Of a stretch of DNA of 64,000 bases, positions 22,752 to 29,089 are shown piece after piece (position 1 is the first letter of the stretch; every line of letters starts with the position of its first letter). The DNA comes from Advenella sp. S44 (GTDB lineage: Bacteria > Pseudomonadota > Gammaproteobacteria > Burkholderiales > Burkholderiaceae_B), in the NCBI RefSeq assembly GCF_002810445.1, contig NZ_NEXS01000010.1, positions 62,001-126,000 of the forward strand, read 5' to 3'. The notes under the pieces were generated by a model. The model searched no databases and was not told the origin of the DNA. It worked only from the letters and a program-made list of their open reading frames with translations. Both the position numbers and the translations under genes were made by a program.

Positions 22752-25187
22752 CTACCATTTATAGCGTACAGACGCATGCACTTTACGCCCCTGGCCATAA
22801 AAGCATTGAAGGGAATTGAGGCAATAGCCAATATACGTTTTGTTGAACAGATTGGAGGCGGTCAACTGCAGCGTCATGCCCTTCAGGCTGGGAGAAAAAT
22901 GCTCGGCATCATAACGGATAGATGCATCGACCAGCGTTCTTGCCGGCAGTGCCAGCGTGTTATCAGCATCCCCAAAATTTGATCCCTGGTATCGCAAGCC
23001 GGTTGCCAAATGCAATGCTGAAAATGGGCTGTACTCCATCCATAACGCCGCCTGGTGACGCGGCACTCGTTCCAGTGATTTACCCTGAAGCGTGCGGCCC
23101 GTAGCGTCCTGATTTGCGTTGACCATCTTCGAATTCAGATAGGCATACGAAGCAATCATATCCAGAGACTCATTAATATTGGCTTTGGCTTCGAGTTCGA
23201 TCCCGCGCACACGTGCCTCACCTGACTGCACCAGGAAACCGGAATGCATTGGCTCCGGATCGGGCGTGGTCATATTGCGTTGCCTGATTTCGAACGCCGA
23301 CAGGGTAATAAAACTCTTGCGCCCTGTCGGTTGGTACTTGATTCCCGCTTCGATCTGCTTGCCACGCATCGCTTTGAACTGGGCCCCCGAAAAGTCGGTA
23401 CCATCTTCTGGTTCAAAAGAGGTACTGTAGCTGACGTAGGGCGCCATGCCGTTATCGAACAGGTAAGCCAGCCCTACCCTTGCCGTCCAAGCCGTTTCCT
23501 GCTGTTTGGCCCGAACATTGGCGGGTATCTGGTTTAACGTACGCGAATGTGCGGAGTCATAACGGGCGCCCAGGGTGGCAACCCAACGGTTCCACCGTAT
23601 CTGGTCCTGAAGGTACGCGCCCAGTTGTTCTCGGGTCTGTCTGTAATCAATACGTGGGATGAGGTCGGGAGACGCCACGTTGTAGTCGGGATCCAAAATA
23701 TCCAGGGGCCGGTCATATGGACCAGAGGAAAATTTGTATGCATCATCCAGGTTCATATAGTCAACGCCGGCCAGGACCGTATGTCGCGCCGCGCCCATAT
23801 AAAAATCTGCCTGCAGATGCGTATCGACCGAGAGCACGTTGGCCCGGGCCCGCCCACGCGTTCCCACTCGGCTCAGATAGCGCGATGTCGGATCCAGCAT
23901 GTATCCAGGGCTGGCCTGCATTGTCACATCGACCTTGTTGTACTGCAGATTCTGACGCAGCGTGAAAATATCATTGATTACATGTTCGAATTCATAGCCC
24001 AGCGCCATTTGCTTGCGCTCATACCCATCAAAATTCGGCTGCCCCAGGTTCTCGGTCCGTGAAATCCTGCCGTAAGGGCTGTCATAAAGGGTACCGACAG
24101 CCGGCAGCGCCATGTAATCGGTCAGCGTCTTGTCCTGCTGATAATGAGAAAACACTGTCAGGCGCGTGCCTTCACCCAGCTTCCAGCTCAGGGATGGCGC
24201 AATAAAGACACGACGGTCAAACCCTTCATCTACCTGGCCGTTGCCATCGCGTGCGAGTCCGGTCAGGCGATAAGAAAACCGCCCCTCCTCGTCAATAGGG
24301 CCGGTAAAGTCAAAGGCGCCCTGCTTGCGGTCATGACTGCCAACGCTAGCAGTGATCTCATGCATGGGCGTATCCAGCGGCTGTTTGGTCATCATGTTCA
24401 CGATACCGCCAGGTGTGTTTTGTCCGTACATGACAGACGCCGGGCCCTTGAGGATATCAATCCGTTCCAGCCCATACGGTTCAATGCGCAACATCGCGGC
24501 ACTGTACGCGCCGAAAGGCAGCTTTGACCCATTCAAATTCTGTTTCAGATAAAAACCACGGCTGTGAAGTACATCATTACGTGTATCGCTATCGCCAAAG
24601 GAGGCGAGCACACCAGGCGTATAACGTACGGCATCAGTCACGCTTTGCGCCCCCTGGGCGGCAATCAGGTCTTTGGTCACCACGTTGACGGTTTGTGGAG
24701 TCTCGAGCAAAGACACAGGGGTTTTCATGGCCGTCGCATCGTTCACTGCGATATAGCCGTCCACCGTACGGCTGTACATTTCGTCAATGGCATACACCAA
24801 GTCCAATGTCGCCACAGCAGGCTCGGCCCCCACCGAACTGTGCTGCCGGGGTCTTGCCACCAGGTTATACGTGTTGTTATCTTGCCGGATTGCCCGCAAG
24901 CCCGTACCCTGCAGTAGTCGGCTGAAGCCTTCGTCAAGAGTATAGCGGCCATGGAGTGCAGGCGCCTGTCTGCCCGCCGTCAAGGAGGAAGGAAAAACCA
25001 TCGCTACGCCAGACTGCAGCACAAACTGGTTAATTGACCGGGTCAGGGGCCCCGCAGCAATTCGGTACTCCTGCAACACTTCTGTTGAACCATCTTGTGC
25101 TAAAACCACCTGTGTGCCCAGGCATAAAAGCGCCAGCACGCCTGCGCAGCTGCCCACCAGCCGAGAACTTCTGTTTTTGAAACTCAT
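22752..25187 (-). CDS. TonB-dependent siderophore receptor with STN signalling domain
   Basis: An 811-residue outer-membrane receptor of the FpvA/FhuE/FoxA kind. After a signal peptide ending TQVVLAQ, an STN domain spans about residues 40-110 (YRIAAGPLTRSINQFVLQSG), then the plug (ETPQTVNVVTKDLIAAQGAQ; LKGPASVMYGQNTPGGIVNM) and a 22-strand barrel ending RKVHASVRYKW. The STN domain is used to signal to an anti-sigma factor, and a FecR and a FecI gene lie directly upstream on the same strand. Ligand is a ferric siderophore, identity unknown; no siderophore synthesis genes are in the window. Confidence 0.93.
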   Translation of the reverse strand: MSFKNRSSRLVGSCAGVLALLCLGTQVVLAQDGSTEVLQEYRIAAGPLTRSINQFVLQSGVAMVFPSSLTAGRQAPALHGRYTLDEGFSRLLQGTGLRAIRQDNNTYNLVARPRQHSSVGAEPAVATLDLVYAIDEMYSRTVDGYIAVNDATAMKTPVSLLETPQTVNVVTKDLIAAQGAQSVTDAVRYTPGVLASFGDSDTRNDVLHSRGFYLKQNLNGSKLPFGAYSAAMLRIEPYGLERIDILKGPASVMYGQNTPGGIVNMMTKQPLDTPMHEITASVGSHDRKQGAFDFTGPIDEEGRFSYRLTGLARDGNGQVDEGFDRRVFIAPSLSWKLGEGTRLTVFSHYQQDKTLTDYMALPAVGTLYDSPYGRISRTENLGQPNFDGYERKQMALGYEFEHVINDIFTLRQNLQYNKVDVTMQASPGYMLDPTSRYLSRVGTRGRARANVLSVDTHLQADFYMGAARHTVLAGVDYMNLDDAYKFSSGPYDRPLDILDPDYNVASPDLIPRIDYRQTREQLGAYLQDQIRWNRWVATLGARYDSAHSRTLNQIPANVRAKQQETAWTARVGLAYLFDNGMAPYVSYSTSFEPEDGTDFSGAQFKAMRGKQIEAGIKYQPTGRKSFITLSAFEIRQRNMTTPDPEPMHSGFLVQSGEARVRGIELEAKANINESLDMIASYAYLNSKMVNANQDATGRTLQGKSLERVPRHQAALWMEYSPFSALHLATGLRYQGSNFGDADNTLALPARTLVDASIRYDAEHFSPSLKGMTLQLTASNLFNKTYIGYCLNSLQCFYGQGRKVHASVRYKW

Positions 25188-25261
25188 AGACCCCTCACTG
25201 TTTTTGCGTTGTGTATAAGTTATGACGGATCACAATCGCAAAGTGACAGGCCGAATCGGCA

Positions 25262-26266
25262 TTATTCTTTCTTTGTTATGGTCACGGCCCATGGCATATA
25301 TTGGCGAACCTCAATTGGCAGCGTCCGACCCAGAATATTGAGCGCCTGTCCGCTGTCATCAATCGGGATTACGCCCGAAACCCGAATACCTTCCAGTTTT
25401 CTCTCGTCATACCACATCACCCCCATGTGATACGCCTTGAGCACATACAGCACCCGGCTCAGCGGCTGATTATCCAGAGCGAGATAACCCTGTGCCCATG
25501 ATGCCGGATCGCTGTACCCCGACGTTTCCATCCGAGATACGGTGTCAGCACTCAGCGTAGCGCTCTGGCCCCGCTTCAAATCTGCACATGCTGGAGGCAG
25601 CTTGCTCTGCGGGCAAGCTCTGACATTGGATTCGATTACGCTAACTTGTGTTTTGTTACCCAGCAACGACACGGTATAACGGGTGCCCAAAGCTGTCGCC
25701 GTCCCTTGCTCTGTTTGAATGATAAAAGGTCTGTTATCACGATCATGATTGACCTGAGCCAGAATCTGACCGTCCCGCAACACGATCCTGCGTTCGGTGC
25801 TGCTATATCGCACGTCCACGGCAGTGCGGGCATCCAGTGTCAGTTCGCTGCCGTCCGCAAGCGTCACTATCTCACGCTGGGCCAGACCGGTGTGGTGGTC
25901 GGCCAGCAAATGCAGATGCATCACTTCAGACAGCAACACTGCCACGCCAGCGCAGCAAATAGCTGCGCCAAGTGTTCGCTTTACCCGACGTTTGCCGCGC
26001 TTTTGTGCAGCCAGATTTGCCATGGCGGCCTGAGCCGGCTCGGCAGCCTTTCCTTCCAGATCGTCGAAATTGCGCCACAATGTCTCCAGCCGTCGCCAGG
26101 CCAGATCGTGGGTGGCATCTGCCTGTCGCCATTGGCGGCACTGCGCGCGCTCCTGCTCGCTCACATCCGCTTCCTGTAGCCGTACGAACCATTGCGCTGC
26201 AACCGCGACAACTTCGGCAGATGGTTCACAGTCCCGCGCCAAAAGATCAGCGACCGAATTTCCCAT
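25262..26266 (-). CDS. FecR-type anti-sigma/signal transducer
   Basis: A 334-residue inner-membrane protein that passes the signal from the receptor to the FecI-type sigma factor. The cytoplasmic N-terminus has the FecR pattern VAAQWFVRLQEADVSEQERA and WRQADATHDLAWRRLETLW, one membrane segment (AAICCAGVAVLLSEVMHLHLL) and a periplasmic FecR domain (LADGSELTLDARTAVDVRYS; GYLALDNQPLSRVLYVLKAY). Start at 26266 is chosen because it abuts the sigma gene stop and leaves a normal N-terminus; 26284 is an alternative that overlaps the sigma gene. It sits between the sigma factor and receptor genes, the usual order. Confidence 0.88.
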   Translation of the reverse strand: MGNSVADLLARDCEPSAEVVAVAAQWFVRLQEADVSEQERAQCRQWRQADATHDLAWRRLETLWRNFDDLEGKAAEPAQAAMANLAAQKRGKRRVKRTLGAAICCAGVAVLLSEVMHLHLLADHHTGLAQREIVTLADGSELTLDARTAVDVRYSSTERRIVLRDGQILAQVNHDRDNRPFIIQTEQGTATALGTRYTVSLLGNKTQVSVIESNVRACPQSKLPPACADLKRGQSATLSADTVSRMETSGYSDPASWAQGYLALDNQPLSRVLYVLKAYHMGVMWYDERKLEGIRVSGVIPIDDSGQALNILGRTLPIEVRQYMPWAVTITKKE

Positions 26267-26267
26267 G

Positions 26268-26786
26268 CTACGCAACGCCCGCATCGCTAAAAACCAGTGT
26301 GTAACATTGCAAAAGTGCAGCAGACAGATACTGACGCACGCGGCTGACAGACACACCAAGGTGTGCAGCGACCTGCGCATGTGTCTGACCTTCGAGCCGC
26401 ACCATGAGAAACGCCATTCGCGCCTTCGGCGGCAAGGTCTCCAGCCACTGACTGACCAGCGCCAGTGTCTGCGCCGCCTGGACTATTGTTTCTGCCGAAG
26501 GCGCCGTATCCGTCCCATGCACATGAACCCAGGACTCGCAAAACAACCGGGCTACCATACGGCTGCGCGAATCATCGATCATCAGGCGCACGGCTGTGGT
26601 CGTCAACCAGGCACGAGGCTCGCGCAGGACAGGAACCGGGCTGCCTAGCAAACGACAGAACGTATCCTGAGCAAAATCTGCAGCGTCATGGGAACTGCCC
26701 AGCTTACGGTGCAGCCACCGTACCAGCCATGGATAGTGCTGTACATAAAGCAGGCCGATATCATCGGTCGAAAGCAAATTGGACAT
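26268..26786 (-). CDS. FecI-type ECF sigma factor
   Basis: A 172-residue ECF sigma factor. Region 2 is visible in YVQHYPWLVRWLHRKLGSSH and DAADFAQDTFCRLL, region 4 in LPPKARMAFLMVRLEGQTHAQ and VAAHLGVSVSRVRQYLSAAL. It should recruit RNA polymerase to the receptor gene when the ferric siderophore is bound, released by the FecR protein encoded next. A strong Fur-box match lies 45-63 bases upstream of its start, which suggests repression by iron. Confidence 0.92.
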   Translation of the reverse strand: MSNLLSTDDIGLLYVQHYPWLVRWLHRKLGSSHDAADFAQDTFCRLLGSPVPVLREPRAWLTTTAVRLMIDDSRSRMVARLFCESWVHVHGTDTAPSAETIVQAAQTLALVSQWLETLPPKARMAFLMVRLEGQTHAQVAAHLGVSVSRVRQYLSAALLQCYTLVFSDAGVA

Positions 26787-26849: not shown

Positions 26850-27230
26850 GATTGAATTTTATCGTTAATGAAAGCGATTTGTGTTGCCTACATACCATAT
26901 ACATTTATACGACACTCTTATGAGTACCGATAAAATGGCTCCGGGACTTGCGCTTGGCCTCAAATCATGCGGTTAAGATGGCAGGCATGAAAACCACCTA
27001 TTATCGACACTTATTTCATACGGAATAACGTCAAGTGTCATATGTTTACCCCTGATTTTGTCTTTTGTCTTATTCCTATTTCAATCGCAAGTAGCGGATT
27101 GTCGGGTTGCAACGCGCTGTCTACACTCTGTATATTGCCGTCGCTCCCACGCAAGCGGCCTACCCAGCCCGGCACGAACAGCCCTATCGGGGCTCCTGGT
27201 TCGCCAGCGCGTATGAGTATTGGTGCAGCT

Positions 27231-27376
27231 AACGGAAAAGGGGGAAAGGGAACGGGACAGGACTGAGACGGACAAGTCAGAACGGACAGTATAGGAAGCA
27301 ACAATATAGGAAGGAACGGGCCAGGGACGAACGGAACTGGATCGGCCAAGATAGAAACGAACTGGATAAGGACACA
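27231..27376 (+). repeat. Purine-rich degenerate repeat tract in the leader of the oxygenase pair
   Basis: About 146 bases with very few pyrimidines on the plus strand, built from recurring GGACA, GGAAC, GAACGGA and TATAGGAAG units with spacing near 14-16 bases (TATAGGAAG twice; GAACTGGAT twice). It ends at the Shine-Dalgarno AAGGA of the first oxygenase. It belongs to the 590-base gap 26787-27376, in which a 74-codon and a 122-codon frame exist on opposite strands but neither has a ribosome site or recognisable sequence. Confidence 0.6.
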
Positions 27377-28114
27377 ATGAACGGACGCGGATCCAATAAA
27401 CTTCAAGCAAGCTGCGCTGCCACGATCGAGAACGCAGACTGGTGCGCACTTGAGTATTCACTAAACCAATACGGCAATGCGATCTTGCCAGGCCTGCTGG
27501 CCGCTGACCAATGTGAAGCGCTCGCTGCCGGCTATGACCGCGAACAAGCCTATCGAAGTCGTATCGTTATGGCCCGTCATGGATTTGGCCGCGGTGAATA
27601 CAAGTACTTTGCCTACCCGCTACCCGCCGTGCTGGACCAATTGCGTCAACGACTCTATCCGCATCTTGCCCCAATCGCCAATCGCTGGAGCCAGCAACTC
27701 AAATTAAATGTGCATTACCCACCAGCGCTGGATACGTTCCTGGCGCAATGCCATGCTGCCGGCCAGACCCGGCCCACCCCGCTGATACTACAATATGGGC
27801 CAGGCGACTATAACTGCCTGCATCAGGACTTATATGGCGACCATGTTTTTCCTTTGCAGGTGGCGATTCTGCTGTCTGCACCAGAACGGGATTTTACCGG
27901 CGGCCAGTTCGTCATGACGGAAACCGCCGCAGCCAGCCAGCGAGCAGAAGTCATTCCGCTGCAGCAAGGCGATGCGCTTATTTTCACTGTTAATCACCGA
28001 CCTGCGCCCGGCAAGCGCGGTGGCTTTCGCAAAGTCATGATGCGTCACGGCGTGAGCGTCGTGCACAGCGGCAGGCGTAACACATTGGGAGTCATTTTCC
28101 ATGATGCCTGTTAG
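27377..28114 (+). CDS. 2OG-Fe(II) oxygenase superfamily protein (first of a tandem pair)
   Basis: A 245-residue cytosolic protein with the iron facial triad and 2-oxoglutarate Arg of the superfamily: HQD at residues 149-151 in NCLHQDLYGDHVFPLQ, the distal His 224 in MMRHGVSVVHSGRR and Arg 234 ten residues later. The stretch PERDFTGGQFVMTE is also typical. Such enzymes hydroxylate or demethylate a substrate with O2 and 2-oxoglutarate; this uncharacterised branch (DUF2086-like, from memory) has no known substrate. ATG at 27377 follows AAGGA. It stands divergent from the FecI system, behind a purine-rich leader, and 27 bases before a paralogue. Confidence 0.85.
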   Translation: MNGRGSNKLQASCAATIENADWCALEYSLNQYGNAILPGLLAADQCEALAAGYDREQAYRSRIVMARHGFGRGEYKYFAYPLPAVLDQLRQRLYPHLAPIANRWSQQLKLNVHYPPALDTFLAQCHAAGQTRPTPLILQYGPGDYNCLHQDLYGDHVFPLQVAILLSAPERDFTGGQFVMTETAAASQRAEVIPLQQGDALIFTVNHRPAPGKRGGFRKVMMRHGVSVVHSGRRNTLGVIFHDAC

Positions 28115-28141
28115 GCGAATCGCTTCCTCAAAGGCGTTCCC

Positions 28142-28939
28142 ATGACTACCCTCACACACAGAATAAATCAGCTGGACTGGGCTCGCATCGCGACTGACCT
28201 GGACGACGAAGGCTACGCCCTGCTGCCCGGATTGTTGTCCAGGGCTCAGGTTCAGACCCTGGCCAACCCATTAAGCGACCAGATCAGCGAGCCGTTAAAT
28301 AGACAGATAAATGACCTGGCGCGACACCACATTTTGTTGACACCGTGCGCACCGGGCGGCGGCCGGCTGTGCTTTTTTAATGACCCAATGCCAGAGGTGC
28401 TCGCTATTTTGCGCAAGCAGCTCTATCACCATCTGGCACCCATCGCTAGTCGATGGAACAACATACTGGGGCACGGCCACCACTATCCCGACACACTGGC
28501 GCGCTTTCTTCAGTCTAACAGCAATGCCGATCAGAACAAGCAACTGTCGCATCTGCACCGATTACAGGAATCAGAGTATATCGCCCTGCATCAACGCAAC
28601 AACGGCAAGCTCGTGTTCCCGTTTCAAGCAGCACTGCTGCTGAGCGATCCGCAGCGGGATTTTCGTGGTGGCGAGCTGGTCATGACAGAACAGCGTCCAC
28701 GCATGCAGTCACGCCCCATTGTCCTGTCGCTACGGCAGGGTGATGTCGTCATCATGAGCACAGGGCACCGTCCCTTCAAGGGAAGCAAGGGCTTTTACCG
28801 CGTCAATATGAAACATGGCGTCAGTCGTGTACGCAGCGGCCAACGCATTGGGCTGGCGCTTTTTTTCCATCATGCGCCCGATAACGACCATGGGCAACTG
28901 CATATTCAGGGCACACGACTTGACGGCGATCTGTCCTGA
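28142..28939 (+). CDS. 2OG-Fe(II) oxygenase paralogue lacking the Asp iron ligand
   Basis: A 265-residue paralogue of the preceding gene product: shared blocks include LYPHLAPIANRW/LYHHLAPIASRW, the VFPFQAALLLSDPQRDF region, GGELVMTEQRP, GHRPF and KHGVS. The distal His 225 and Arg 235 are kept, but the HxD motif reads HQR (residues 150-152, codon CGC at 28595-28597), so one of the three iron ligands is lost. GAC to CGC needs two changes, which makes a read error unlikely. It may be a pseudoenzyme or partner of the first protein, or use another ligand. The frame is intact and has an AAAGG site, so it is not simply decayed. Confidence 0.8.
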   Translation: MTTLTHRINQLDWARIATDLDDEGYALLPGLLSRAQVQTLANPLSDQISEPLNRQINDLARHHILLTPCAPGGGRLCFFNDPMPEVLAILRKQLYHHLAPIASRWNNILGHGHHYPDTLARFLQSNSNADQNKQLSHLHRLQESEYIALHQRNNGKLVFPFQAALLLSDPQRDFRGGELVMTEQRPRMQSRPIVLSLRQGDVVIMSTGHRPFKGSKGFYRVNMKHGVSRVRSGQRIGLALFFHHAPDNDHGQLHIQGTRLDGDLS

Positions 28940-29006: not shown

Positions 29007-29038
29007 GATGAGCTTTACTGATGATGAGCTTTACTGAT
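29007..29038. repeat. Two perfect 16-bp direct repeats
   Basis: GATGAGCTTTACTGAT occurs twice head to tail in the short gap after the oxygenase pair. No coding or transposon context is seen. Confidence 0.8.
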
Positions 29039-29089
29039 GATGGCGTCGTCGAAGACGAGCGTGGTTGAAGGTTCGGCGTATCAAAGGGC

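Follow-up and report, generated by a model that had tools for sequence, protein, structure and literature searches.

Two adjacent genes of Advenella sp. S44, which we call A and B, probably encode one oxygenase of the alkylation (Ada) response that has been split into two chains. We hold with moderate confidence that A would be the catalytic chain and B an inactive partner supplying a loop to it. Single-copy PF09859 enzymes of Ada operons resemble the pair in their family, in their ada/alkB neighbourhood, in the loop of B and in the iron site of A; they hold both features in one chain, whereas in Advenella the two are parted between two chains.

Two PF09859 paralogues in Advenella

The pair lies on the plus strand of the 64,000-nucleotide stretch of DNA that was analysed (the window). 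Gene A (27377-28114) encodes an oxygenase of 245 aa with an intact HQD...H...R site, and gene B (28142-28939) a predicted pseudo-oxygenase of 265 aa. Both reading frames are intact; B starts 27 nt past the stop codon of A, and the two genes are in the same frame. Against the PF09859 'Oxygenase-NA' profile A scored 264.5 and B 227.2 bits (Pfam cut-off 26.2), which makes both of them members, and they were the sole two family matches genome-wide. The earlier note on this DNA had called them homologous, and they are (40% identity over 245 aligned columns, E 4e-51). Its reading of the active-site residues also agrees with the translation. A has H149-Q150-D151 (codons at 27821-27829), H224 and R234, and so would possess the whole iron triad HxD...H and the 2-oxoglutarate (2OG) Arg. 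B has H150-Q151-R152 (28589-28597), H225 at the distal iron ligand place (28814-28816; kept in B, gone in some relatives) and R235 at the 2OG-binding Arg place (28844-28846; present in 59/59 B rows), and it lacks the triad, with R152 (CGC, 28595-28597) at the place of the iron-ligand Asp.

AlkB, too, takes part in the alkylation response as a 2OG-Fe(II) oxygenase, and its gene is often the neighbour of A, but it belongs to a different Pfam family (PF13532), whose profile matched neither A nor B at E up to 1. Searching the PDB by sequence yielded best E values of only 0.13 and 0.32. The best-scoring relative of B with a named record was from Advenella incenata (67% over residues 1-263), with the partial gene of Advenella sp. 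FME57 (74%) next. A scan for B relatives across genome contigs kept 80 of 384 loci. By tblastn, the B protein of locus L045 had no match in phage records, and B protein found 88 matches in plasmid records. Among open-licence papers we found none on this bacterial family under the names PF09859, DUF2086 or Oxygenase-NA.

A has lost a loop that B retains

B contains an Arg-rich loop between two core strands, TEQRPRMQSRP (residues 182-192, 28685-28717), which is near-invariant in its clade: 60 of 61 B rows had exactly these letters and the remaining one VEQRPRMQSRP. At the aligned place A reads TETAAASQRA (residues 181-190, 27917-27946), and A genes in general have TETAAASQ-RA and similar. The same loop was found in 54 HQD rows, mostly single-copy genes, from phyla that include Pseudomonadota, Myxococcota, Acidobacteriota, Nitrospirota and Cyanobacteriota. 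Because single-copy HQD enzymes carry the QRPRMQSR loop, it is A that has lost it, and a motif newly gained by B is ruled out. A third type, C, which has HQD (CCLHQD) and is frequently found after B, has the loop replaced by TESDPKKPGRA and similar. The tree by which A, B, C and the single-copy types were grouped omitted both the iron and the loop columns. The earlier note had made no mention of this reciprocal loss, in which A is without the loop common to B and the single-copy enzymes.

Typing by script of 306 distinct members, from loci up to L253, gave 72 with both Asp and loop, 124 with Asp and no loop, 108 with the loop and no Asp, and two with neither, the counts referring to distinct 65-residue cores rather than genomes, with partial rows and rows below 60 bits skipped. 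By eye, one of the last two (L178) retains the loop as ERRPRLQSC and the other (L167) is an interrupted gene, so that no intact typed member was missing both elements. Inspection by eye also counted L112 (EQRTRMQS) as loop-kept, left L137 (TQQTPRAQSKA) borderline and identified L183 as a fragment. The loop is altered in some single-copy enzymes, namely L137 and G937 (EQVPRAQSK), and in some of genus g16 its last Arg is replaced by S or C.

On a free tree of Asp-kept copies (111 of 203 rows, below 80% identity) loop loss took four changes; a single loss is compatible with the data, since placing A and C together gave a p-AU of 0.876, in a test that swept L137 into that group. The Acetobacter plasmid NC_021976.1 (L255) carries ada, a loop-less HQD copy, a loop-bearing HQD copy and alkB, in that order; its row of genes also includes a DNA-3-methyladenine glycosylase.

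Ada and AlkB neighbourhood

Neighbours were counted if they lay on the same strand and no more than 400 bp away, with an Ada cut of 250 bits; the loci differ in length, and the counts are lower bounds. Single-copy-type genes (n = 74) had Ada upstream in at least 29 cases, Ada downstream in at least 7 and AlkB downstream in at least 30. A genes (n = 106) had AlkB downstream in at least 59 and Ada downstream in at least 7, with no upstream Ada, and for B genes (n = 111) Ada was upstream in at least 45 and AlkB upstream in at least 7. It looks as if a gene between ada and alkB had been duplicated, A remaining beside alkB and B beside ada. Genes for an AlkA-Ada-Ogt fusion, for AlkB and for an Ogt-like methyltransferase recurred around B, as did one for a small protein whose match to the Ada zinc domain stayed below threshold. 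Of 111 B genes, 26 had the gene of this small protein (L045:5501-6034 and homologues; 20.2 bits against a cut-off of 23) directly downstream, and 13 of 19 C genes had it upstream.

Neither ada, which has one Ada zinc domain (contig C11), nor alkB (contig C15) lies near the Advenella pair. Comparison of Advenella loci revealed a conserved 20-bp element upstream of A, TTTCAATCGCAAGTAGCGGA (27079-27098, plus strand), a putative Ada-responsive promoter element. It was identical in five of the six Advenella A-B loci read and had two mismatches in the sixth; its summed identities came to 98 of 100 where the median was 61, which places it among the best conserved of the 460 20-mers compared in the region upstream of A. 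It includes AAT and GCAA; the available part of the source gives these letters for boxes A and B of Ada in E. coli (PMC4437013). The first half of the element, TTCAATCGCAA, occurs seven times in the 4.3-Mb genome, against once for the reversed control: as an inverted pair ∼50 bp upstream of the first ada ATG, where an open frame on the opposite strand also spans the pair, once before A-B, and four times within longer coding frames. Directly before alkB there was no copy of the 20-mer at up to six mismatches. Because promoter letters are common to A-B and ada, and because relatives of the pair are members of ada operons, the Advenella pair is probably part of the Ada regulon.

Between the element and the start codon of A the window is purine-rich and loosely repetitive (27210-27376), aligning poorly with other Advenella loci; Tandem Repeats Finder reported a 15-bp repeat unit at 27286-27317. 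A perfect 16-bp tandem repeat, GATGAGCTTTACTGAT, follows directly after B in 2.2 copies (29007-29042). The pair is flanked by a FecI/FecR pair upstream and a carbonic anhydrase gene downstream, both on the opposite strand. The opposite strand upstream of A (22752-26786) holds a TonB-receptor-like gene, so judged from its translation, a FecR gene (PF04773) and a FecI-type sigma factor gene.

Co-occurrence of A and B

Every one of the 49 genomes reached via B loci also encoded an HQD copy, an inactive homologue thus co-occurring with one that bears an active site, as in the fungal TlxIJ pair discussed below. In 43 of them the HQD copy was of A type with at least 400 bits; the other six had a C-type or loop-bearing HQD copy (G443, G445, G461, G462 and G471) or one with an altered loop (G429, EQRPHMQP). 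The tandem order A-B recurs in many genomes. The earlier note had asked whether B always stands next to an HQD copy. Presence in the same genome held throughout, but adjacency did not: B and the HQD copy were on separate contigs in G456, G470, G446 and G429, far apart on one contig in G457 (418 kb) and G027 (1.9 Mb), and distant or on separate contigs in some Cupriavidus.

Three censuses extended the comparison. In the window's order, 36 of 399 genomes had a family match. All six B genomes among these (G000, G012, G022, G162, G252 and G414) had a loop-less A, and 28 of the 30 single-match genomes had HQD together with the loop, the rest being the borderline L137 and a remnant in G139. This remnant, from genus g42 (L143; G139:C1:1681400-1681510), is short and has B-like letters, LKYAISRVRSGYRIGLEL. 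One single-match family member, G566:C13:270572-271258, is reported with one in-frame TGA.

In the window's family, 98 of 268 genomes had a match and 63 an A-type copy of at least 400 bits. B was read in 61 of these 63, a count that includes eight genomes read via loci with identical contig coordinates and one (G006) in which B lies as two pieces on contig ends. The two A-bearing genomes without B were G558 (100% complete) and G503 (78% complete). A third genome, G544 (99% complete), had a loop-lost HQD copy of the kind seen in genus g55 and no partner that we found; as its genus has very degenerate partners, one may have been overlooked. Loop-less HQD copies for which no loop-bearing partner was found thus number three (G558, G544 and G503). 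In the class census 17 of 370 genomes, the window's own among them, had a match, 12 with HQD and loop; the remainder included the borderline G937 and fragments in G775 and G917. G1060 had a loop-less A and a C with no visible B, and its contig ends at the expected place of B. Seven B genomes (G429, G440, G441, G444, G445, G461 and G462) also held an HQD copy with the loop or nearly so.

These patterns bear on what B may do. The genomes in which A and B are distant or on separate contigs, the strongly conserved Arg-rich loop and the Ada gene just upstream of B in 45 of 111 cases would also suit a B that binds nucleic acid or lesions in the Ada response as a non-catalytic protein, and does so independently of A. 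Such a role would leave unexplained why A has lost the exact element that B retains, and few A-bearing genomes lack B (2 of 63 in the family census); we regard it as unlikely, but as deserving real weight. Co-occurrence and tandem order could also reflect a B that inhibits or allosterically regulates A, with the loop as a docking surface, and on these data an inhibitor and an activating partner look alike. The loop, however, is common to single-copy HQD enzymes, which makes it more likely a component of the working enzyme than a new docking site, and we think a regulator distinctly improbable.

The iron site of the B clade

The Asp-less copies fell on one side of a branch, 59 of 150 distinct members, with an SH-aLRT support of 100 and no Asp-bearing row among them; the tree omitted the iron columns and used distinct rows with at least 190 aligned residues from the 80 kept loci and the first relatives. 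With more rows added the clade had 61 members. B homologues that mostly retain Asp, which the earlier note had named as the sign of simple decay, are therefore not what the clade consists of. The note had asked whether the HQR form is conserved as a clade; the clade was borne out and the HQR form was not. The triad was HQR in 34 of the 59 rows, HRH in six, HQQ and HQS in three each, HQH, HRR and HQC in two each, and otherwise one of seven singletons. The distal His was present in 58 of these rows and the 2OG Arg in all 59, and a Tyr that is invariant across the 91 HQD rows (Y140 of A) was Leu in 58.

A larger set of 109 distinct Asp-less rows, from which the broken L167 was left out, had at the Asp place R in 43, H in 37, Q and S in five each, Y in four, C in three, N in two, and W and G in one each, with eight rows lacking an aligned letter there. 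The first His could not be aligned in 44 of the 109, and the second His place held Q in 17 and L in five of 110 rows (L167 included). All three ligand places are altered in, for example, L198, L199, L201-L203, L205, L218, L221, L224-L226, L232, L233, L237 and L238, and the iron region is unrecognisable in L188-L197, yet EQRPR-Q-R or a near form is retained in both groups. The loop is also kept by many B copies of the Achromobacter-like genus g4 in which the first His is replaced by Leu, Ile, Met, Thr or Ala and the second by Gln. Ten genomes of genus g55 have a partner that is short or unalignable at the iron region and retains EQRPR-Q-R or a near form, and all 10 HQD copies fetched have TEQRAGHPAQA, TEQIAGQPARA or similar at the loop place. 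As far as the sequences tell, the iron site of the B clade is freed from constraint, with no new conserved site in its stead.

One could take B for an active enzyme whose metal site has changed, to either two His plus Arg or a halogenase-like open site, since most rows of the 59 have H150, H225 and R235 and R is commonest at the Asp place. Nine different residues at the Asp place, the His ligands missing in many members and the Tyr-to-Leu exchange argue against it. HQR as a conserved new metal site, and with it Arg as a conserved new ligand, is ruled out. The Ala or Gly typical of halogenases was likewise not seen in B, which has R, and among the 109 rows there was a single G (L111) and no A. 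Because the Asp place varies and one or both His ligands are missing in many members, a changed working iron site of the halogenase kind, one of two readings offered by the earlier note, is unlikely for the clade, and we consider an active B very improbable; the other reading, an inactive paralogue as partner, is the best supported.

Pairwise NG86 comparisons of the window copies with those of A. incenata, G008, G007 and G006 gave dN/dS values of 0.07-0.12 for A and about 0.23-0.34 for B, the G006 row of B covering 188 codons only and a fifth relative, G003, being excluded for saturated dS. B is under constraint, as the earlier note had supposed from its intact frame, but evolving faster than A. 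Simple decay of B, which its faster evolution and the degenerate form that is the only one seen in part of genus g55 might recall, is contradicted by loop conservation across the clade, by open frames in 108 distinct loop-bearing copies and by these dN/dS values, and can practically be dismissed.

Structure models and known systems

The AlphaFold model of B (pLDDT 89.2, pTM 0.88) places loop 182-192 as the turn joining strands 179-184 and 191-195; going by strand order, it would lead from the fourth core strand to the fifth. The best Foldseek match of this model was P. putida prolyl-4-hydroxylase (PDB 4j25; E 5e-9, TM 0.47), which in its first row shares 13% identity with B and differs in having a protein substrate; another entry on the list, 4iw3, is the complex of this hydroxylase with EF-Tu. 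A linked A-B model reached pLDDT 84.3 and pTM 0.72 over 520 residues with a forced 10-residue linker, five paired rows and no extra A rows. We judge that two randomly placed domains would give a lower pTM; the value is no more than suggestive of an A-B contact, within the limits that the linker and shallow alignment set on its reading.

Top Foldseek matches of the linked model were OGFOD1 and Tpa1 (TM 0.26-0.32). In the part of the source available, the catalytic DSBH domain of these proteins comes first and a second DSBH domain, which lacks a metal site, comes after it (PMC4396695). They are eukaryotic ribosomal prolyl hydroxylases with both domains fused in one chain, whereas A and B are separate chains, and their domain arrangement disagrees with the linked A-B model.

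A further parallel is given by fungal Fe(II)/2OG oxygenases. The accessible portion of the report describes TlxI/TlxJ and TlxC/TlxA as heterodimers of an active chain and a catalytically incompetent homologue; a loop of TlxI, the incompetent chain, is indispensable for binding the substrate, while TlxJ alone is weakly active and the TlxI/TlxJ pair resembles a homodimeric relative (PMC12141560). That pair is a fungal natural-product heterodimer, whereas a complex of the bacterial pair is a predicted one, and, going by the same portion, TlxI is without the 2OG Arg, whereas B retains this Arg and is without the iron Asp. Because TlxJ alone is weakly active, calling the A-B partnership 'obligate' may be too strong. 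Going by these partial sources, an oxygenase of the 2OG type working with a pseudoenzyme is a kind already known, from fungal natural products and, in fused form, from eukaryotic ribosomal hydroxylases.

A proposed split oxygenase of the Ada response

We propose that the ancestor was a single-copy PF09859 enzyme of a form still common today, with an HQD-H-R site and an EQRPRMQSR loop, often encoded between ada and alkB. After duplication of its gene, A would have given up the loop but retained the iron site, and B would have done the reverse. A would then be the catalytic subunit and B a catalytically dead pseudo-oxygenase that binds A, its loop acting in trans, where it would most likely grip a nucleic-acid substrate or shape the active site of A. 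Nucleic-acid binding is suggested by the three Arg in the loop, by the operon and by the Pfam description of the family as oxidative methylation of damaged DNA. In Advenella the pair would be expressed from adjacent genes, probably induced by methylated Ada. The working enzyme would need one iron site and one loop, possibly from different chains, and once the gene is duplicated one chain may lose either element while the other retains it. H225 and R235 count against a split enzyme, as a dead protein need not keep them and most B members have them. More tentatively, and with slightly more doubt than belief, we suggest that reciprocal degeneration has produced a widespread two-chain DNA/RNA alkylation-repair oxygenase, with the iron site in one paralogue and the loop that it needs, acting in trans, in the other.

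If this is true, a bacterial repair enzyme exists in single-copy, intermediate (Acetobacter) and fully split forms, all in living species. A split enzyme would put a name to a branch of the Ada response that has gone unstudied, and would explain why these genes are paired; the natural series of whole, half-split and split enzymes and truncated partners would show how a single enzyme comes to consist of two chains. For finding the substrate, the conserved loop would offer a direct handle.
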